This document shows positions 3,258 to 18,092 of a DNA stretch of 20,108 nt, piece by piece; within the stretch, counting starts at the first letter, position 1; every line of letters begins with the position of its first letter. Source of the stretch: a virus; the IMG/VR virus record IMGVR_UViG_3300034061_004440, positions 1-20,108 of that record. One strand, 5' to 3'. The position numbers were made by a program, and so were the translations under genes. Under the pieces are notes generated by a model. The model was not told the DNA's origin, searched no databases, and saw only the letters and a list, made by a program, of their open reading frames with translations.

Positions 3258-5093
3258 ATGTCGGCCCAAGCAGAAATAGATATCAGGGTAAATACAGAAG
3301 GTGCCCAACAATCCTTAGATAAGTTTCAAGGTGCTATTGATACCTTAGGAGGTTCTGTAGAAGTTGTTTTCGGTTCATTAGCACTGTTTGGTGTTGAAAA
3401 TGAATGGGTTAAGAATTTAGAACAAGGTGCTGTAGGTGCTATTGCGTTAGCTGATGGTGCTAAGCGAATGACCGAAGGTATCATCAAATTTACTGGTGCT
3501 ACTACATTAGCTGAAGCTGCACAAGCTGCTTTTAATGCTGTAGCTAATGCTAACCCCTATGTTTTATTAGCTACTGCTATTTTAGCTGCAGGTACTGCTT
3601 TATTCTTATATAAGAAAAATGCTGAAAAAGCTAAAGAAGCACAAAGGCAATTAAGGGAGGAAATAGGTAAAGCTAATTTTGATACAATTAGAAATATTCA
3701 GCTGTTAAAAGTTGAATTAAAAAATGAACAAAACTTAAGAGAATATCAAGCACGTGTTAGCACTAAATCTGTAAAAGAATTAAATGCTGAAATTGCAGCA
3801 TCTAATAAAGCTATCACTCAACAAACTGCTAATGTTGAAAAACAAATTCCTTTACTACAACAGTTAGATTTACAATTTCAAAAGGAAGCTAATGCTTTAC
3901 AAGCTAGATTTGATGCTGGTCAATTAAGCAATGAACAATATGAAAAGGAAAGTGAAGCATTAGCTAAAAGAACAGACCAAACAAAACAAGATATTGAGTT
4001 ACAGCTTGAAAATGCTAGAATAGCTATTGAACAACAGCAAGCTTACATTGATATAGCAAATGAGGAGATAGATAAAAGAAATGAAGTAGCTGAAACTAAA
4101 TCTGAAAATGCTAAAGCTGATAAGGTACTTAGAGATGCTGAAAAAGCAGCTGAAAAAGAAAAAGCAGCAGATTTAGTTAAAATTCAAAATGAATTAGAGG
4201 ATGAATTATATTTAGCTAGGTTTAAAGGTCAAGAATTAGAAGAACTACAAGCACAACAGTTATTTGATGATAGGGTAGCTAGGGCTAATGGTAATGCTGA
4301 GTTAATAAAACAAGCTGAAGAATTATTATTAGCTGATTTAGCTGAAATTAGACAAAGATATGCTGATGATGAAGAAGCTAAAGCAGTTGAACAAACAACT
4401 AAACAAGCTGAAATTAATGCTGCTACTTTAGAAGCACAAAAAGCATTAGATGCTGAGTTATTAGAATCACAAAAAGCATTAGCAGCAGAAGAAGCAGCTT
4501 TACAAGATGCTAAAATATCTGCTATAAGAAGTACATTTGATATAGCTAGTTCTTTAGCTGGTGATAATGAAAAAGTACAAAAAGCTATATTCTTAGCTTC
4601 TAAATTATCTGAAGCTGCCCAGGTTGCTGTTAGTACTACAGCTACAGTAGCTGGTATAAATGCAGAAACAGATGCTGCTGTTGCAAGTATAGCAGCTAGA
4701 AAAAATGAAACTATAGCTGCAGGATTAGCAGGTGACCCTTCAGCATTTGCTAGAGTACCTGCTTTACAAGCTTTACAATTAACTACTAAAGCAACAGGTG
4801 TAGCTAAATCTAGAATAGCTAAAATTAAAGGGGCAGCTGCAATAGCTGCTATATTAGCATCCTCCATAACTGGTCTTAAAGGTGGAGGTGGTGGAGGTGG
4901 AGGTGAAGGAGGTGGTGGTGGTGATTCGGGTATAGGTACAGGTGCTTTTGCTACATTAAGTTTACCTGGTCAAAACCAAAACCAACCTCCTCAATCACAA
5001 CCATCTCAACCTATCCAAGCATATGTATTAGCTGGTGATGTATCTAGTGGTTTAGAAGCACAACAAAAAATTCAAGAAAGAAGAAGATTATGA
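3258..5093 (+). CDS. Tail tape measure protein
   Basis: This 611-residue protein sets tail length and is threaded through the tail tube. The N-terminus (AEIDIRVNTEGAQQSLDKF) is the usual tape-measure opening. A hydrophobic segment follows at about residues 100-118. A long Ala/Glu/Lys/Gln-rich coiled coil runs from about 120 to 430, and a second hydrophobic, Ala-rich stretch from about 435 to 540. A glycine-rich hinge at about 541-557 precedes a conserved-looking tail, AYVLAGDVSSGLEAQQKIQE, which I associate with tape measures of Bacteroidota phages. It is short for the family, suggesting a tail of roughly 90 nm if the usual length per residue holds. The start follows an A/T-rich leader (aataaataaataaaATG). 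It overlaps the protease gene by ATGA. No chaperone frameshift gene pair is seen beside it. Confidence 0.88.
   Translation: MSAQAEIDIRVNTEGAQQSLDKFQGAIDTLGGSVEVVFGSLALFGVENEWVKNLEQGAVGAIALADGAKRMTEGIIKFTGATTLAEAAQAAFNAVANANPYVLLATAILAAGTALFLYKKNAEKAKEAQRQLREEIGKANFDTIRNIQLLKVELKNEQNLREYQARVSTKSVKELNAEIAASNKAITQQTANVEKQIPLLQQLDLQFQKEANALQARFDAGQLSNEQYEKESEALAKRTDQTKQDIELQLENARIAIEQQQAYIDIANEEIDKRNEVAETKSENAKADKVLRDAEKAAEKEKAADLVKIQNELEDELYLARFKGQELEELQAQQLFDDRVARANGNAELIKQAEELLLADLAEIRQRYADDEEAKAVEQTTKQAEINAATLEAQKALDAELLESQKALAAEEAALQDAKISAIRSTFDIASSLAGDNEKVQKAIFLASKLSEAAQVAVSTTATVAGINAETDAAVASIAARKNETIAAGLAGDPSAFARVPALQALQLTTKATGVAKSRIAKIKGAAAIAAILASSITGLKGGGGGGGGEGGGGGDSGIGTGAFATLSLPGQNQNQPPQSQPSQPIQAYVLAGDVSSGLEAQQKIQERRRL
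4880..4925 (+). repeat. GGN glycine-codon run in the tape measure gene
   Basis: A run of GGT/GGA codons encodes eight glycines, one glutamate and five more glycines, forming a flexible linker before the C-terminal segment of the tape measure. It is a simple-sequence tract, in frame, in an otherwise AT-rich gene. Confidence 0.8.
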
Positions 5094-6586
5094 GTACCCC
5101 ATTAATAATAAAATTAGATTTCGAAGAGGATAAAATAGAAGATGGTGTTTATGCTATCTCTATAGTTGATAGTCCTGCAATAGAAGTAGATTTCTTTACT
5201 TTTAATAAATATGAATTTGCTACTTATTCTGATTATCCTAAAGCTGTATCCGCAGCTGCTGAAAGAGGTATTAGATTAAACGAAGCAGTAAACAATAAAT
5301 GTGCTACACAAGTTGGTAAAGTTAGGGCACAACAGTTAGCCCAGGGTAAACCTGTTAGTGAGGAAACAATTAAGCGAATGTTTGCTTATTTGTCCCGTGC
5401 TAAAGAATATTATAACCCTGATGATACTGAAGCTTGTGGTACAATTTCTTATTTATTATGGGGTGGTGAACCAGCATTAGGTTGGTCTGAAAGAAAATTA
5501 GCACAAATTGAAAGAGAAAGAGAATTAAAAGCAGAAAATGAATTAGTTGATTCATTTGAGTTCTCTAAAAAGAAAAAAACCATCTATCTAATATCTTGTA
5601 GTTCAGATAAATTAGAAAGCAAAGCAGCAGCAAGTGAATTGTACTGTTCTCCTTTATTTAAGAAATCCCTTGAATATGCAAGAAAACAAGTATCAGATGA
5701 CCAAATATTTATTTTATCAGCTAAATATGGTTTAGTACCTTTAAATAAAGTTATAGAACCTTATGATGTTACATTAAAGGATATGCCCAGTGATGAAAGA
5801 AAAATGTGGGCTGAAAAGGTTTATTCTGAATTAGAAAATCAATTCAGTATCAATACTGATGAGTTTGTATTTTTAGCTGGTACTGCTTATACAGAATACT
5901 TAATTCCTAAATTTAAGTACACTCATGATTTCTTAGAAGGTAAGAAAATAGGAGAGAGATTAGAATACCTAAATAAATTCTACATTTGCTTCAACAGTGA
6001 TTATTTAGCTTTCTCTTATTTATTTAATGCTTTAGAACAGTTACCAGAATCAGAAAAAGATAATGTTATTGAACTACTTGATAAAATCTCGCAGAATACC
6101 AATAAGGAGATATTTTGTGATGCAGATGGTGGGTGTGAAGTTAAAATGGAAATTCAAACGGATTTTACAGCAGAATCCGAAAAGCAAATGATAGTTTCAC
6201 CGGTAATGATACCGAACAAAGCTATCCTAAGAAAATCTGTTACAGGTGAAGAATTTTATGTTTATTTTACACCTGATACTATTGAAAAAATGGCCCATAA
6301 CTTTCTAAAAAAGAAAGCAACAGATAACTTCAACATCCAGCATGATACAGGTACTAAATTAAAAGGTATTAGTGTTGTTGAAAGCTGGGTTAAACAAGAT
6401 GATAATGATAAAAGTTCCAAATATGGTTTTAATTTACCTGATGGTACTTGGTTTGTTATGTTGAAAGTTGAAGATACTAATTTATGGAATCTAATTAAAA
6501 CAGGTGCTGTAAAAGGATTATCGTTAGAAGGTTACTTTGGTAAACAAGAAACCTTAAACAAATTTGAAGATTGTGGTTGCGAATAA
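5090..6586 (+). CDS. XkdF-like prohead protease with embedded DUF6884-like domain
   Basis: This 498-residue protein has an unusual build. Residues 1-40 carry the GVYAISIVDSPAIE strand that opens XkdF-type proteases. Residues 46-140 form a separate domain (DYPKAVSAAAERG, then CGTISYLLWGG) that I have met in other phage head proteins. Residues 163-297 match the DUF6884 pattern: an ISCSSDKL start, then ELYCSPLF, FILSAKYGLVPL, IEPYDVTL and a KIGERLEYL close. Residues 365-484 are the protease core, with probable catalytic His418 (NIQHD) and Ser478 (GLSLEGYF). Its job is to cleave scaffold and itself during capsid maturation. It sits directly before scaffold and capsid, overlapping the tape measure by ATGA. 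The protease call is strong; the role of the inserted domains is unknown. Confidence 0.85.
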   Translation: MSTPLIIKLDFEEDKIEDGVYAISIVDSPAIEVDFFTFNKYEFATYSDYPKAVSAAAERGIRLNEAVNNKCATQVGKVRAQQLAQGKPVSEETIKRMFAYLSRAKEYYNPDDTEACGTISYLLWGGEPALGWSERKLAQIERERELKAENELVDSFEFSKKKKTIYLISCSSDKLESKAAASELYCSPLFKKSLEYARKQVSDDQIFILSAKYGLVPLNKVIEPYDVTLKDMPSDERKMWAEKVYSELENQFSINTDEFVFLAGTAYTEYLIPKFKYTHDFLEGKKIGERLEYLNKFYICFNSDYLAFSYLFNALEQLPESEKDNVIELLDKISQNTNKEIFCDADGGCEVKMEIQTDFTAESEKQMIVSPVMIPNKAILRKSVTGEEFYVYFTPDTIEKMAHNFLKKKATDNFNIQHDTGTKLKGISVVESWVKQDDNDKSSKYGFNLPDGTWFVMLKVEDTNLWNLIKTGAVKGLSLEGYFGKQETLNKFEDCGCE

Positions 6587-8254: not shown

Positions 8255-8827
8255 ATGGCTACTTGTAATATAACTTCAGGATTCCAATTAGGATGTAGAG
8301 ATAATACCGGAGGTGTTAGAAGAATCTATATTTTAAGTGGTAGTGTGAGTAAGGTAGTTAATACTAACTCTTTAATCACAGCAATAACAGGTTCAGGTAA
8401 GTTCTTTGCTTTTGAACAAGTTAACCAAACCGCTAACTATACAGAAACTATCAACTCTAGTATTGAAAATGGAACTATTTTCTATCAGCAGGATTTAACA
8501 ATCCAGTTCCACAAATACCAGGATTCGTTACAAGATATAATTGGTACTCTAGGTAAACAACCAGATGCTAAGATTATCTTAGAAACACAGAATGGTAGCA
8601 GTGATAACGATGCTAGATGGTTCTATTTAGGTCAGTTTAATGGTTGTACTCTATCAGCTGGAACTGGTCAAACAGGTACCGCATATGGTGATTTGAATGG
8701 TTACTCATTAACATTCACTGCATTCGAACCTGAACCAGCAAAAGAGATAAGTGCATCTTATGATAATACTAAAACAGCATTCCAGATGTTATCTGGTAGC
8801 TTAAATGGTATTCTAGTAGGTTACTAA
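8255..8827 (+). CDS. Probable tail tube (major tail) protein
   Basis: This 190-residue, mostly beta-stranded protein begins MATCNITSGFQLGCRDNTGG, an opening I associate with structural tail proteins of Bacteroidota phages. The middle holds alternating polar/hydrophobic strands (FYQQDLTIQFHKYQDSL). The late segment, YSLTFTAFEPEPAKEI, resembles the final strand of tail tube proteins. It lies 33 bases after the capsid gene and is the last gene before a strong terminator, so capsid and tube could be made from one abundant transcript. An alternative is a minor capsid or decoration protein. The structural role is well supported by position; the tube assignment is moderate. Confidence 0.62.
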   Translation: MATCNITSGFQLGCRDNTGGVRRIYILSGSVSKVVNTNSLITAITGSGKFFAFEQVNQTANYTETINSSIENGTIFYQQDLTIQFHKYQDSLQDIIGTLGKQPDAKIILETQNGSSDNDARWFYLGQFNGCTLSAGTGQTGTAYGDLNGYSLTFTAFEPEPAKEISASYDNTKTAFQMLSGSLNGILVGY

Positions 8828-8889: not shown

Positions 8890-9027
8890 ATGATTTATGA
8901 ACCACCTTTAGCAATGTTACTAAATGCGGTTAGTGCATTAGGAACGCAAAATGCATCATATGATTTTAATTATGATGGTTGGGTTACAGTTAAAGATATA
9001 TTGTTCATATTAGCTAATATGTTTTAA
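8890..9027 (+). CDS. 45-aa protein with a dockerin-like calcium-loop motif
   Basis: This small gene encodes 45 residues and its stop shares a base with the next start (TAATG), which supports real translation. Residues 25-36 read DFNYDGWVTVKD, followed by ILFILANM. Asp25, Asn27, Asp29, Gly30, Thr33 and Asp36 occupy the calcium-ligand positions of an EF-hand or dockerin loop, and the following hydrophobic helix also fits a dockerin repeat. Only one loop is present, whereas true dockerins have two. It lies just after the terminator and before a small structural protein, so it could be a minor virion or tail component. The function is unknown; the loop call is by motif only. Confidence 0.7.
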   Translation: MIYEPPLAMLLNAVSALGTQNASYDFNYDGWVTVKDILFILANMF

Positions 9028-9563
9028 TGTTATATTTCAGTTTACAAGATAATAATACAGTTGTTTTTTATACTCCTACTAAATTAAATTTGGTAGCAGG
9101 TGAACAATTGTCTATTGATTTTGTAGCTGAATATTCATTAGAATCTTATAGCATAACCTCCAGTATAGTTTCTTATAATGGTCCTTATATAAAATTTGTT
9201 ATACCATCAGCATCATTAGTTAATGAAGCTATTAAAGGAGGTTTTTATACTGTTAGTTTAGTTGCTTCTGTTGTATGGGAAGAGGATTTAGATAATTGGG
9301 AGGATGCAGATTATAATTGGGATGAGGGAGGTAATGTATATGATACTGATAGAGGATGGGTTTATGAATTTGTTCCTTCAAATATCTATACATCAAGCTT
9401 TGAATCTGCTTCTTACTATACTCACAGTATCAATATAACAGAATATGTTTATACATCAAGTTTTGAAACAGCATCTTATTATACAGCATCGATTCCAGGA
9501 GATGGGGGCACCCCTTATATATCTGTAAGAGAGACCGCAACATACTACGTTTACAATGGGTAA
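9027..9563 (+). CDS. Small structural protein with YTSSFE repeats
   Basis: This 178-residue protein is rich in Ser, Tyr and Thr and appears beta-stranded. The first 80 residues (VVFYTPTKLNLVAGEQLSID to GFYTVSLVA) resemble an Ig-like or fibre-type fold. A Trp/Asp-rich stretch follows (DNWEDADYNWDEGG), then two copies of YTSSFE(S/T)ASYYT spaced 21 residues apart. The YTSSFE motif also occurs in the long tail fibre (near 15145). It starts inside the stop codon of the mini-gene before it and overlaps the portal gene by 8 bases. I do not recognise a family; a minor virion, neck or decoration protein is plausible. Confidence 0.65.
   Translation: MLYFSLQDNNTVVFYTPTKLNLVAGEQLSIDFVAEYSLESYSITSSIVSYNGPYIKFVIPSASLVNEAIKGGFYTVSLVASVVWEEDLDNWEDADYNWDEGGNVYDTDRGWVYEFVPSNIYTSSFESASYYTHSINITEYVYTSSFETASYYTASIPGDGGTPYISVRETATYYVYNG
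9387..9488 (+). repeat. Two-copy YTSSFE-ASYYT repeat (63-bp spacing)
   Basis: Copies start at 9387 and 9450, in the same frame. The DNA is similar (tatacatcaag shared, then tttgaa), pointing to an old internal duplication. Confidence 0.75.
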
Positions 9564-10743
9564 TACAGCAAAATATTTTTCAAGGAATTATAGCAACCGT
9601 TATGCTATAAATGAGGAGAGAATGGAATACCATATTAGATATGGTGAAGATGATTTATTCCCTCAAAAGTTAATTTGGTTATTTAACCATTGTTCTATCA
9701 ATGGTGCTTGTATTAAAGCAAAAACTGAAGCAACTATAGGTAATGGTTTAATTTGTGACCAGGATTATATTTTAGATTATGCAAACCCTAAAGAATCCTG
9801 GAATGATATCTATAGAAAAATAGCTTTAGATTATAATTTATTTGGTGGTTTCGCTTTAGAAGTTATATGGTCTCAAGATAGAACTAAAATAGCAGAGGTT
9901 TATCATGTTGATTTCTCATTTGTTAGGGCCCAACATAAAAACCATAGAGGTGAGGTTGATGCATATTATGTTAGTGCATTATGGAATAGTAGTTATGGTA
10001 TAGCAGATATTCATAAAATTCCTGCATATAACCCGGAGAATACGGTTGAATGTCCAAAGCAGTTATTATATCACGCACCATATAGACCTGGTTTAGAATA
10101 CTATCCTTTACCGGATTATATGGGTGCTGTAAGAGTTATAGAATTAGATGCTGAGGTTGATAATTTCCATGTTAACAATGTTAGAAATGGTTTAGCACCA
10201 TCTTTAGCTATAACAACATTTACAGATGCTTCAAGTGAAGAAAAAGAATGGATTGAAAGGGCACTTAGGGCCCAATATGCTGGTTCACACAATGCTGGTT
10301 CTCTACTTTATATGGATGTTCCCTCGCAGGACCAAGCACCTATTATAACACCTATTCCAGCAAATGGTAACGATGCATATTATGAAATTATGCATAAAAT
10401 TATGGAACAGAAAATCCTAACTGGTCATAGAATCACCTCACCAATGATTTTAGGTATTAAAACTGAAGGTCAATTAGGTGGTAGAGATGAGATGATGGAT
10501 GCTTATTTGTTGTTTATGAATACTGTTATTAACCCAAAACAAGCTGATATATTAGGTTGTTTAGAAAAATTATTAGAGGTTAATTATGGTGATGTAACAT
10601 TAGGTGTTGAAACAACTCAATTATTTGATGATGGTTCAGTAGAAACTGATGTTGTTGTATCAAATGAATCAACACAAGCAGACAGTAAGGATTTAGAAGT
10701 TCAAACCATCACAGAACAAACAACTGAAACTGAGGTATTATGA
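9556..10743 (+). CDS. Portal protein
   Basis: This 395-residue protein has the length and features of a small portal, the dodecameric ring at the capsid vertex through which DNA passes. Supporting segments are the N-terminal YHIRYGEDDLFPQKLIWLF, which occurs in portal proteins of Bacteroidota phages, and CIKAKTEATIGNGL, where portals usually carry their conserved core. Others are ALDYNLFGGFALEVIW, the helical wing region (EVDNFHVNNVRNGLAPSL) and the stretch ITSPMILGIKTEGQLGGRDE, typical of the portal crown. The last 30 residues are polar and rich in Thr, Glu and Val. It overlaps the genes on both sides (8 bases, and ATGA). Its place after the tail tube rather than before the protease is unusual. 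Confidence 0.85.
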   Translation: MGNTAKYFSRNYSNRYAINEERMEYHIRYGEDDLFPQKLIWLFNHCSINGACIKAKTEATIGNGLICDQDYILDYANPKESWNDIYRKIALDYNLFGGFALEVIWSQDRTKIAEVYHVDFSFVRAQHKNHRGEVDAYYVSALWNSSYGIADIHKIPAYNPENTVECPKQLLYHAPYRPGLEYYPLPDYMGAVRVIELDAEVDNFHVNNVRNGLAPSLAITTFTDASSEEKEWIERALRAQYAGSHNAGSLLYMDVPSQDQAPIITPIPANGNDAYYEIMHKIMEQKILTGHRITSPMILGIKTEGQLGGRDEMMDAYLLFMNTVINPKQADILGCLEKLLEVNYGDVTLGVETTQLFDDGSVETDVVVSNESTQADSKDLEVQTITEQTTETEVL

Positions 10744-11966: not shown

Positions 11967-12227
11967 TTACTTTAAATGTTTCAACAAGCTTGGTTTATTC
12001 ATAACCTCTGCTAACTGTATTAACGCAGCATTGAAATGGTCCTTTTCTGTTATAAAACCATCTTGATTGAAATGCTTTTTTTGGTATTTTAATGCTGATT
12101 TTTTTGATTGTATATTTGCACATGGTTTGCAATATCTATAATACCCACTTTTACAACTATCACACTTACCAAAGTATTCTGATGTTAATGGATATTCAGT
12201 GTTACATATAGCACATAGCTTGTTCAT
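11967..12227 (-). CDS. Zinc-ribbon protein (86 aa)
   Basis: Six cysteines lie in three CxxC pairs (Cys5/8, Cys22/25, Cys33/36). The layout CAICNTEYPLTSEYF ... RYCKPC resembles the zinc-binding N-terminal module often found before HNH endonuclease domains in phages. No HNH motif follows; the remaining 45 residues are helical and charged. It may bind DNA or a protein partner. It is the last gene of the minus-strand operon. An AT-rich stretch (tatatttat) lies five bases before the start codon. Confidence 0.7.
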   Translation of the reverse strand: MNKLCAICNTEYPLTSEYFGKCDSCKSGYYRYCKPCANIQSKKSALKYQKKHFNQDGFITEKDHFNAALIQLAEVMNKPSLLKHLK

Positions 12228-13899: not shown

Positions 13900-16191
13900 A
13901 TGGCCCTTCCAGATTTAACAGGAAATAAGATAAAAGATACCTATCAGAGAGTTGTTCAAACTGGAGATGGTAAAACATTCTATAATGGTACCGGTTCAGC
14001 TATTCCTATAGTTACCAATCCCTATACTGGTTCTTTAGCTATCTCAGGAGGTGTTGTAATAAATGGTACAACATTATCAGGTGGAAATTTAAATGGATTA
14101 AGTGATGTAGTTATAACTAATCCTCAGCTAGGTGATTTATTAGTTAGAGATACTTACAGCACTAACTGGGTTAATTCCCAGACCTTAGATGGTGATTATA
14201 CCTATAATGGTACTAATGTTTTCACTAATGAAACTACTCATAATGGAGGTATTTATACAGCTGGAGATATAAATGCAGGTGCTGATTTAGCTTATAATAT
14301 AGGAGGTGACCCAGCTAGAGATTATTGGTTTGCTACAGCTTCTATTGGTTATATTAGAACATTCCAGGGTGGAATAGAATTTGTAGACCCAACTGGTAAA
14401 ACACCTCAGGCTGTATTAACAGTTAATTCTAATGGTTTTACATTAAATAATGCTGCAGGTGCTAAAACAAATTTATCAGCATCAGGTGGTACCTTTACTA
14501 GTAATGTTTCAGCTAATAGATTTGTAGGCCCATTAACAGGTGCTGTAACAGGTAGTGTTTTAGGTAATTTAACAGGTACAGCTAGTTTAGCTACAACTGC
14601 TTCATTCGCTACCCGTGCTAATGTTGCTACCTCAGCTACCTCATCTACCTCAGCTTCTTTTGCTGTTACAGCTTCTTATGTTCTCAATGCTGTAAGTAGT
14701 TCCTTTGCAACTACAGCATCTTATGCTTTAAATGGAGGTGTTACTCAAATAATAGCAGGTACTAATGTTACAATATCCCCAGCTGGAGGAACAGGTGCTG
14801 TTACAATTAACTCAACAGGTGGAGGAGGAGGAGGTACTACATTCCCATATACTGGTTCTGCTATAATATCAGGTAGCTTAATAGTTACAGGTTCTACAGC
14901 AGTATCAGGAGGTATAAGTACCCAATTTATTGATTTTGATATTAATGCTGCACCTGCTTTTTCTACAGGTAGAGTTAATTGGGTAGATGATACTAAAACA
15001 TTAGCAATTGATACTGAATTAAATGGTTTCCAAATTGAAGTAGGCCATCAAAATGTTATTAGAGTAAGAAACCAAACTGGTACTACTATATCAAGAGGTA
15101 GAGTAGTTTATTTAAGCGGTTCCTCAGGTAACAGACCTCTTATTTATACTTCAAGTTTTGAAATAGACCCAACATCAGCAGGTACTGTAGGTTTAGTAGC
15201 AGCTGATATTAGCACCTCTAACAATGGTTATGTTATATCTAATGGTCTAATAAGAGATATAAACACAACAGCTTATACCGCGGGTGCAGTTTTATATCTA
15301 TCCTCAAGCGGTCAACTTTCAACAACAGCACCTGTAGCCCCCTTACATAGTGTTAGATTAGGTAAAGTTATAACATCTGCAGTATCCGGTATAATCCATG
15401 TAGATGTTGATAACGGTTACGAAATCGGTGAGTTACACGATGTAGTTGATACTTCAACAAATTCTACGTTTGGTGCATTATTAGTTAAATCAGGTAGCGT
15501 TTGGAAAAATGGTTATCAACTAACTGGTTCATATGGTTTAACTGGTAGCTTAAGTGCAACATCATTTACTGGTTCATTATTTGGTACTGCATCTTGGGCT
15601 ACTAATGCTTTAACTGCTTCAAACCTAACACCAGCTATAACTAACAATACAGATAATAGAGTATTAACAGCTACAGGTGCGGGTAGTATTAATGGTGAAG
15701 CCAACCTAACATTTGATGGTTCTTTATTAGATATAATAGGTGATATTCAGTTTAATGAAAATAGAATAAGAACATCAAGTACAACAGTAGGTCAACCTGG
15801 TAAAGGTGCTGATTTAGCTTATGATTGGGGTAACTTTACAACAGCACCTACAGCAGGAAGAATAGTTTATTATGCTAGTGGTTCAGGAGGATTTGGTTGG
15901 AGAGATGCTTTAGCAAGTGCTACAGGTAGCAGTATTGGACCATTAGGTGTAGCTACTAATGCTGCTTCTCAAGATGAAATAATGTTAAGAGGTGCTGTTA
16001 GAGTAAGTGGTTCACTATCTGGATTAGCAGCAGGCCAAGTAGTATATTTAAGTAACACAGTATCAGGTAGTGTAACAGGTACAGCACCATCAACAACTGG
16101 TCACGTAGTTAGAATAATAGGTTATGTTATTAGCCCAACAGACAACACAATATACTTTAACCCTGATTTCTCTTATATAACAAGAACATAA
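13900..16191 (+). CDS. Long tail fibre protein
   Basis: This 763-residue protein begins MALPDLTGNKIKDTYQRVVQ, a typical opening of tail fibres in Bacteroidota phages, probably the part attached to the tail. A Ser/Gly/Thr-rich beta region follows, then a TASFA/TASYA repeat zone (about residues 227-277), a Gly-rich linker (near 308-312) and two or more beta modules. The module near residues 400-505 contains GRVVYLSGSSG and VGLVAADIS. A segment at about 585-615 (NRVLTATGAGSINGEANLTF) is common in fibres of marine phages. The last module (GLAAGQVVYLSNTVSGSV...) resembles the earlier VVYLS module, suggesting duplication. It overlaps the LamG gene by TAATG. Its role is host binding; the receptor is unknown. 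Confidence 0.85.
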   Translation: MALPDLTGNKIKDTYQRVVQTGDGKTFYNGTGSAIPIVTNPYTGSLAISGGVVINGTTLSGGNLNGLSDVVITNPQLGDLLVRDTYSTNWVNSQTLDGDYTYNGTNVFTNETTHNGGIYTAGDINAGADLAYNIGGDPARDYWFATASIGYIRTFQGGIEFVDPTGKTPQAVLTVNSNGFTLNNAAGAKTNLSASGGTFTSNVSANRFVGPLTGAVTGSVLGNLTGTASLATTASFATRANVATSATSSTSASFAVTASYVLNAVSSSFATTASYALNGGVTQIIAGTNVTISPAGGTGAVTINSTGGGGGGTTFPYTGSAIISGSLIVTGSTAVSGGISTQFIDFDINAAPAFSTGRVNWVDDTKTLAIDTELNGFQIEVGHQNVIRVRNQTGTTISRGRVVYLSGSSGNRPLIYTSSFEIDPTSAGTVGLVAADISTSNNGYVISNGLIRDINTTAYTAGAVLYLSSSGQLSTTAPVAPLHSVRLGKVITSAVSGIIHVDVDNGYEIGELHDVVDTSTNSTFGALLVKSGSVWKNGYQLTGSYGLTGSLSATSFTGSLFGTASWATNALTASNLTPAITNNTDNRVLTATGAGSINGEANLTFDGSLLDIIGDIQFNENRIRTSSTTVGQPGKGADLAYDWGNFTTAPTAGRIVYYASGSGGFGWRDALASATGSSIGPLGVATNAASQDEIMLRGAVRVSGSLSGLAAGQVVYLSNTVSGSVTGTAPSTTGHVVRIIGYVISPTDNTIYFNPDFSYITRT
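14578..14730 (+). repeat. TASFA/TASYA repeat zone in the tail fibre
   Basis: Short Ala/Ser/Thr motifs recur: TASLATTASFAT, then SASFAVTASYVL and SSFATTASYAL. Codons are mostly GCT, ACA, AGC and TCA/TCT. Such zones are frequent in Bacteroidota phage fibres and may form trimeric stalks. Confidence 0.75.
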
Positions 16192-17087
16192 TGCCCATAG
16201 CTACAATAAATGGTATAACAGCAGGTAATATATCTCTTTTGAATGGGATATCCTATACATTAGTAAGCACATATAATGGTGTTGTATCTTCATCTGCACC
16301 TGCACCACCACCAGCTACAGCATCTTTTGTTACAGGTGGTTTAGTAGCTTATTGGGACCCAACAAATAGTGGTAGTAGAACTACTGGGGTTATAGGTGGT
16401 TTAACTTACAGTAGGTCATTGGATTTAACTTACTTGTATACAGCAAGCAACCCAATTGTTACTCGTAGCTTCTATCTATTTAGTGGTGCTACCTTTACAA
16501 CATTTAATAGTGGTAGTGTAAACCAAACTGTTTTTTATGTTGATGGTGCTGGGGGTGATTATTTGTCATCTTACAATGATATAACAGGTCAACTTACAGC
16601 TTCTAATAGTGACCCAATGAAAGTTAGTACTATGCTTAATTTTACTAATGAATTCTGGTTTAGAAGTAGTGGTAGTTATTTACCTGATGGTGCTTTATAT
16701 AGTGCTATTTATAACCAAGGTTCAAGAACAAGAATAGCAGATGCTACAGGAACCCATTGGGGTTATGCACCCAACCTTGTAAATGCTGCTAATATAGGTG
16801 GAACTTTTGCTACAAATACCTGGCATCATTATGTTATAACTATAGCTAATATAGATGCCACTAATGATAGATATAGAGTTTATAAAGATGGTGTTCAAGT
16901 AGGTGTAGATACAACTGGTAACTATGCCCCTACAGATATCTCAGCAGGATATTTAATGGGTAGCTGGAATGGTAGTACTGAGTTACAAAGAATGTTTGTT
17001 GGTGAAGTTAGAAGATATGATAGAGAACTAACAGCAGCTGAAGTATTAACTAATTATAGTGCAAGTAAAGCGAAATATGGAAAATAG
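16191..17087 (+). CDS. LamG/concanavalin A-like receptor-binding protein
   Basis: This 298-residue protein has a short N-terminal piece (about 1-35), a Pro/Ala linker (SSSAPAPPPATASF), then a laminin-G-like jelly-roll domain. The typical motifs are FTNEFWFRS (about 151-159), TWHHYVIT (210-217), YKDGVQVG (231-238) and GEVRRYDRELTAAEV (271-285), the usual end of Laminin_G_3-type domains. Such domains bind sugars, so this is a likely adhesin at the fibre tip. It starts within the stop codon of the long fibre gene, which supports a joint fibre complex. The C-terminus overlaps the next gene by 11 bases. Confidence 0.82.
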   Translation: MPIATINGITAGNISLLNGISYTLVSTYNGVVSSSAPAPPPATASFVTGGLVAYWDPTNSGSRTTGVIGGLTYSRSLDLTYLYTASNPIVTRSFYLFSGATFTTFNSGSVNQTVFYVDGAGGDYLSSYNDITGQLTASNSDPMKVSTMLNFTNEFWFRSSGSYLPDGALYSAIYNQGSRTRIADATGTHWGYAPNLVNAANIGGTFATNTWHHYVITIANIDATNDRYRVYKDGVQVGVDTTGNYAPTDISAGYLMGSWNGSTELQRMFVGEVRRYDRELTAAEVLTNYSASKAKYGK

Positions 17088-17585: not shown

Positions 17586-18092
17586 ATGGCAATACATAAA
17601 CAAATAGAATTAGTTTATCCTGAGTTAATACTCATGATAACAACAATAACAAAAGATAAGGTTATTGCTACTGATTTGGTGCATGATAGTATAGCTGATT
17701 TTTTATCAATGCCCAGCTTAAAACAGAACAAAATAAAAAAAGATGATAGAATAAAAGAATATATCTATCAAATAGCTAAAACGCAATATTTCAGTAGCAC
17801 ATCTAATTTCCATCTAACATACAGAGAAAATCAAGTACTAAAAGTAAAAGATAACTCAGATTTAGAACAGTTAGAGGTAGAGGATACAGATAACCAAAGC
17901 ACAAGTGAATTAAGGTTAATAATGAGTACAATAAATAAACATTGTACTAAATTTGAAAAACAACTAATAGTAGATAGGTTTGTTGAAAATATGACCTATA
18001 AGCAAATGGGTGATAAGCATGATATGCCCACCTACTTAATAACAAACAAAATTAAAACTCTAATAAACAAAATAAAACAAAATGTATTATAA
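17586..18092 (+). CDS. Sigma-70-like (ECF-type) factor
   Basis: This 168-residue protein has two helical domains. Residues about 10-40 (MITTITKDKVIATDLVHDSI) match region 2 of small sigma factors, where DLVxDxxxxxL is typical. Residues about 112-165 match region 4, a helix-turn-helix with the segment MTYKQMGDKHDMPTYLITNK as the DNA-recognition part. Such factors direct RNA polymerase to particular promoters. It is the first gene after a terminator, with an AT-rich tatatttat stretch six bases before the ATG, so it probably has its own promoter. The match is by pattern and rather diverged; a simple helix-turn-helix regulator is the main alternative. Confidence 0.65.
   Translation: MAIHKQIELVYPELILMITTITKDKVIATDLVHDSIADFLSMPSLKQNKIKKDDRIKEYIYQIAKTQYFSSTSNFHLTYRENQVLKVKDNSDLEQLEVEDTDNQSTSELRLIMSTINKHCTKFEKQLIVDRFVENMTYKQMGDKHDMPTYLITNKIKTLINKIKQNVL

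Follow-up and report, generated by a model that had tools for sequence, protein, structure and literature searches.

A gene for a 45-residue protein with a calcium-type loop in a morphogenesis block

Does a short open reading frame among the structural genes of a tailed phage encode a free-standing calcium-loop protein, and if so, does this protein belong to the virus particle? The question is raised by a stand-alone virus record of 20,108 bases, the whole stretch of DNA analysed here (the window). A first-pass annotation had proposed a 45-aa protein with a stop that overlaps the next start as TAATG, and its coordinates, length and overlap are all confirmed in the sequence (Table 1). The frame begins with the earliest start codon open to it, ATG 8890, encodes MIYEPPLAMLLNAVSALGTQNASYDFNYDGWVTVKDILFILANMF and ends with TAA (9025-9027), which shares the TAATG at 9025-9029 with the ATG of the next gene. 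The loop of the product, DFNYDGWVTVKD, is of the D-x-N-x-D-G type. As claimed, ligands are found at loop positions 1, 3, 5, 9 and 12 (D25, N27, D29, T33 and D36), and position 4 is a Tyr; D25, N27, D29, G30 and D36 are invariant across the family alignment described below. The 44-base loop pattern has one match in the window versus none in 100 shuffles. Codon usage of the frame is compatible with coding, and is non-discriminating.

Table 1. Features of the 45-aa gene and its surroundings in the window.
Feature	Position	Strand	Basis or remark
Large coiled protein, probable tape measure	3258-5093		position and composition only
S78-type protease gene	5090-6586
Conserved 190-aa gene upstream, probably a tail structural protein	8255..8827	+	weak Prophage_tail/PHROG matches
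Intrinsic terminator AAAGCGGGC..GCCCGCTTTTTTTT, 5' of the gene, common to L003, L004 and L051	8851..8879	+	sequence
Insertion relative to L003 and L004	8884..9026	+	alignments end 8883/8885, restart 9020/9027
45-aa stand-alone one-loop dockerin-like/EF-hand-like microprotein gene	8890..9027	+	ORF, profile, predicted fold
Predicted helix 1, residues 6-15	8905..8934	+	AlphaFold2/DSSP
12-residue calcium-type loop, residues 25-36	8962..8997	+	sequence; family alignment
Predicted helix 2, residues 34-44	8989..9021	+	AlphaFold2/DSSP
178-aa gene downstream, TAATG-coupled, overlaps portal gene	9027..9563	+	predicted N-terminal beta-sandwich, weakly BppU N-domain-like
Portal protein gene	9556..10743	+	Pfam/PHROG matches

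The surrounding genes form a morphogenesis block of a tailed phage, which includes a DUF6712 protein after the portal; by position, the protease is probably followed by a scaffold-like gene and a capsid gene. Distant relatives of the portal occur in Nonlabens and Bacteroides phages, and the host is thus likely a member of the Bacteroidota. The 45-aa gene had been placed between a terminator and the portal gene. The terminator is where it was expected, whereas on the other side the 178-aa gene intervenes. From an alignment of 21 sequences of its family, the 178-aa product is predicted with moderate confidence to have an N-terminal beta-sandwich. Its fold matches are weak and mostly Ig-like; the first is a baseplate chain of phage NF5, and the N-terminal domain of TP901-1 ORF48, the large phage baseplate 4v96 and the 80alpha baseplate also rank high. 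The coupled neighbour is therefore plausibly a baseplate component. Homology of the 178-aa product to the N-terminus of the large protein of contig L108 was tested and rejected.

The gene appears to be a recent acquisition in a variable slot

A portal-based search gave 47 relatives, and two contigs are identical to the window wherever they overlap it. Of the distinct relatives with a complete slot, L003 (portal 97%) and L004 (portal 91%) are the closest. Both lack the 45-aa gene: the terminator is followed by about 20 bases and then by the homologue of the 178-aa gene. In nearly all relatives where it could be measured the slot is empty, with a length of 43-78 bases; the window lineage has 199 bases there and L042 has 353. 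The L042 slot holds an unrelated 88-aa ORF (L042:2792-3058) with no family match, located after a tail-like gene and before the 178-aa homologue, indicating that the slot accepts various small genes. L044 shows the remaining long gap, and its upstream gene is truncated.

The relative search for the 45-aa gene used a 48-residue read-through of the same frame as query. Contig L051 shares the start of the gene, 24 residues, before the contig ends. Over the neighbouring genes L051 is about 90% identical to the window and clearly represents a different strain. Judging from these alignments, the 45-aa gene was acquired recently, as a precise insertion of one gene's length, in a slot able to take small genes. 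The first-pass annotation had set absence from close relatives as evidence against its proposal, and L003 and L004 are precisely without the gene. By this criterion an obligatory part of this particle is refuted, though a functional accessory gene is not: absence from these two and from nearly all other relatives shows the gene to be dispensable. Absence does not mean that the ORF is spurious, since the gene is also present in the distinct phage L051 and strong purifying selection acts in the wider family, as measured in its 49-aa group.

Free-standing one-loop proteins recur in virion gene blocks

A scan of IMG/VR with a loop pattern reached at least 80 contigs. Among the matches listed were many large proteins with dockerin-type loops and, unexpectedly, free-standing small ORFs. 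Following up by pattern and profile, we found at least 24 distinct stand-alone one-loop proteins of 41-59 aa in at least 38 contigs, with the window lineage excluded and some of the 38 probably being one phage sampled repeatedly. These proteins have in common a hydrophobic helix 1, a short linker often starting G-T/S, a YD-phi-N-x-D-G loop and a hydrophobic helix 2. We define the class as free-standing ORFs of 41-61 aa with a hydrophobic helix 1, a short linker, a YDxNxDG-type loop and a helix 2. The 45-mer falls within this definition, is 31-44% identical to members, and like them is located in a structural/packaging block.

A profile built from the stand-alone relatives, with the window sequence left out, scored the 45-mer at 39.3 bits, whereas 200 shuffles of its residues scored at most 8.3 bits. 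In the ORF set of all collected loci the same profile gave the 45-mer an E-value of 2e-9; among the loci collected by then, the highest-scoring long protein with such a loop reached 31.0 bits. Because the relatives were collected by the loop pattern, identity within the loop is partly by construction, and kinship is supported instead by helix 1, by the spacing of the linker, by the size of the free-standing proteins and by the location of their genes.

Between two members of a 49-aa group, L063 and L088, 37 of 150 nucleotides are different but just one amino acid is, demonstrating strong purifying selection on the protein. This selection was measured in the 49-aa group; full-length copies of the window version are all identical.

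Nearly all members lie inside structural or packaging gene blocks; the proposal of a stand-alone gene in a virion cluster thus holds for the window and for nearly all of at least 38 other contigs. Three positions recur. The first is directly 5' of the portal and 3' of lectin-domain (LamG) and minor-tail-like proteins (L108, L088 and L145; L165 is similar). The second is beside tail genes (L064, L071, L104, L112, L117 and others), in the order large virion structural protein, 133-aa gene, microprotein, small putative membrane protein, neck/tail-completion-like gene. In the third, the gene overlaps the start of the terminase large-subunit gene and the portal comes next (L186, L174). The least clear case is L170 (the same as contig L164), where a 372-aa gene separates the microprotein from a terminase-like gene.

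A tblastn search against annotated phages returned chance-level matches only (E of at least 1), so the search revealed the gene in no cultured phage, and a search of genome contigs returned only long bacterial proteins with the loop. The Pfam dockerin and EF-hand models match these proteins below threshold, and no PHROGs family meaningfully matches any of the five members tested; neither resource describes these mini-proteins as a family.

The predicted fold is dockerin-like with a single loop

An AlphaFold2 model of the 45-mer, built from a 13-sequence alignment, is a helix-loop-helix with a mean pLDDT of 90.1, as the first-pass annotation had anticipated. Both helices are very hydrophobic, and the hydrophobic helix proposed to follow the loop is borne out by the sequence, the profile and the model. 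A fold search of the PDB placed dockerins at all top positions (2ozn_B, 5k39_B, 2y3n_B and 5m0y_B), with TM of 0.65-0.77 over about 40 residues; the best match was the NagH dockerin 2ozn_B (TM 0.77, rmsd 0.9, 39 columns). E-values were weak (0.4-0.6), as expected for a query of only 45 residues. A search of BFVD gave no significant match.

Like PF00404 and type II dockerins, the 45-mer has a hydrophobic residue at loop position 2, D/N/D ligands and the order helix-linker-loop-helix. Dockerins are fused to an enzyme or a scaffoldin, whereas the 45-mer stands alone and lacks the first loop. Type I dockerins have two loop-helix calcium repeats, whereas the 45-mer has one loop; it matches PF00404 at 14.2 bits, against a gathering cut-off of 22.9, over profile positions 25-52 of 57. 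When two-loop viral modules are aligned to the 45-mer, their first loop has no counterpart and the linker and spacing ALGTxNxxYDxNxDG coincide, which explains the dockerin fold matches. No cohesin was found, and the best fold matches of the 178-aa neighbour are baseplate and Ig-like domains. We regard the 45-mer as a one-loop mini-dockerin: in order and linker it resembles dockerins, but the missing first loop and the score below the Pfam cut-off keep it outside the dockerin family proper. Of the dockerin/EF-hand-like character first proposed, loop and helix are upheld by sequence, profile and fold, whereas the single loop and the sub-threshold score, with no cohesin found, set the protein apart from a dockerin proper.

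The comparison with EF-hands is likewise mixed. As in a classical EF-hand, a 12-residue loop with the standard ligands at positions 1, 3, 5 and 12 (D25, N27, D29, D36) is flanked by predicted helices. Unlike one, the 45-mer has a linker of about 9 residues between helix 1 and the loop, a dockerin trait, and it is single whereas EF-hands are usually paired. It does not match the canonical pattern PROSITE PS00018, owing to the Tyr at loop position 4; its 49-aa and 42-aa relatives do match. Relatives hit the EF-hand models PF00036 and PF13405 with E-values of about 1e-4.

Loops of this type are known within larger phage proteins. The phage lysin LysGH15 has an EF-hand-like calcium site with a 12-residue EF-hand-type loop (PMC4022735), which sits inside an enzyme domain, whereas the 45-mer stands alone in a virion block. 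EF/dockerin-type loops also occur within large phage tail proteins, a baseplate wedge protein in L055 and a tail protein in L076; the loop is of the same type, but is fused into proteins of more than 1000 residues. Two phage proteins of about 800-890 aa (L052:1314-3710 and L056:3782-6451) carry a one-loop dockerin-like module at their extreme N-terminus, and that of L052 has no PHROG match.

A calcium-dependent accessory of the virion is the most likely role

Together the data suggest that the 45-mer, stapled by calcium, most likely serves the virion as an accessory for docking or assembly. The fuller statement, a recently inserted and translated accessory that serves as virion clamp or decoration through a one-loop dockerin-like mini-domain recurrent in environmental tailed phages, has in our judgement about an even chance of being correct. 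From the reading frame, the family, the selection on its relatives and the gene position, and from the predicted fold, we infer the following course. The gene would have entered the morphogenesis operon of this phage lineage recently, and translational coupling with the next structural gene would lead to synthesis of the 45-mer. Calcium would fill the loop, upon which the protein would fold with its two short hydrophobic helices held across the loop. The helical face could then dock on another copy of the 45-mer or on a virion protein with a beta-sandwich, for which the baseplate-like 178-aa product encoded next to it is the most plausible candidate, and the docked protein may act as a calcium-dependent clamp or decoration in tail/adhesin assembly or in adsorption.

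A somewhat unlikely alternative is that the 45-mer needs a partner, as a homodimer or as a heterodimer with a second microprotein, to form an EF-hand pair or a split dockerin. EF-hands are usually paired, and four contigs (L068, L086, L112 and L117) contain two different one-loop genes in tandem with ATGA overlaps, while three others (L152, L154 and L155) contain both types apart. Nevertheless, L064, L071, L108, L158, L161 and L165 have a single type only and no second copy was found in the 20,108-base record, so a heterodimer is not obligatory; furthermore, the monomer is predicted to fold confidently. An obligatory heterodimer was accordingly rejected, many phages carrying one type only. The tandem pairs at L068:6580-6851 (-) and L117:4799-5076 (-) resemble a split two-loop module.

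It is rather unlikely that the product is a moron-type protein acting inside the host, in a regulatory, membrane-directed or anti-host capacity, for which the late-operon slot is a mere landing site. Such a role would suit the variability of the slot (empty in most relatives, filled by the loop gene here and by the 88-aa gene in L042), the very hydrophobic helices and the small putative membrane protein encoded next to the gene in several phages. In unrelated phages, however, the gene stays with portal, terminase and tail/lectin genes and is not scattered over the genome, and calcium-type loops normally function at high calcium, that is, outside cells.

Whether the gene is a functionless relic, a transferred helix 1-helix 2 fragment of a larger two-loop dockerin-like protein, appears highly doubtful. 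In its favour, the shared linker and spacing extend to fused viral modules, the closest single sequence being a one-loop module within a 257-aa protein of L187 (19 of 35 residues identical), and the gene is absent from close relatives. A relic is hard to reconcile with an exact gene-sized insertion that brings its own start codon and whose stop overlaps the start of the following gene, and with the same stand-alone architecture under selection in other phages. Finally, a chance loop-like sequence in noncoding DNA has next to no likelihood: the frame is short and AT-rich and its codon usage indecisive, but a profile score far above the shuffles for practical purposes refutes this explanation, and the confident fold, the clean insertion and the family elsewhere also speak against it.

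Returning to the virion accessory, one may extend it to a general proposal, which we hold to be quite unlikely: many uncultured tailed phages would carry one or two free-standing mini-dockerins that clip calcium-dependently onto beta-sandwich virion proteins and gate or assemble the adsorption apparatus, a phage counterpart of cohesin-dockerin docking.

Our literature search found no description of such stand-alone one-loop microproteins. Since both loop and fold are familiar, and large phage tail proteins contain loops of this type, the microproteins are not categorically new. There are many reports that phage adsorption and virion stability depend on calcium, often with no known protein basis; a recurrent, strongly conserved class of one-loop proteins encoded among virion genes offers a concrete candidate for that basis. 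In a study of phage TP-84, putative structural proteins were screened for EF-hands and none was found (PMC5889276). That no PHROG family reached significance for the five members tested suggests that genes of less than 60 aa in phage structural operons are overlooked.

Other features of the window

The S78-type protease carries a seamless DUF6884 (YaaA-like) domain insert (window 5555-6007, residues about 156-306), which is absent from the homologues in L003, L004, L005 and L051; in L013 and L016 the corresponding site holds about 1.4 kb. On the reverse strand, an 86-aa protein (11967-12227) starts like a zinc ribbon and matches HNH/endonuclease VII weakly; it also contains an EF-like stretch, HFNQDGFITEKD, without the first ligand. 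A LamG/ConA-type lectin virion protein, likely a host-binding gene, is encoded at 16191-17087. Further downstream, the gene at 17586-18092 encodes a small sigma-factor-like protein that may regulate late genes; it matches a PHROG sigma factor with E 4e-6.
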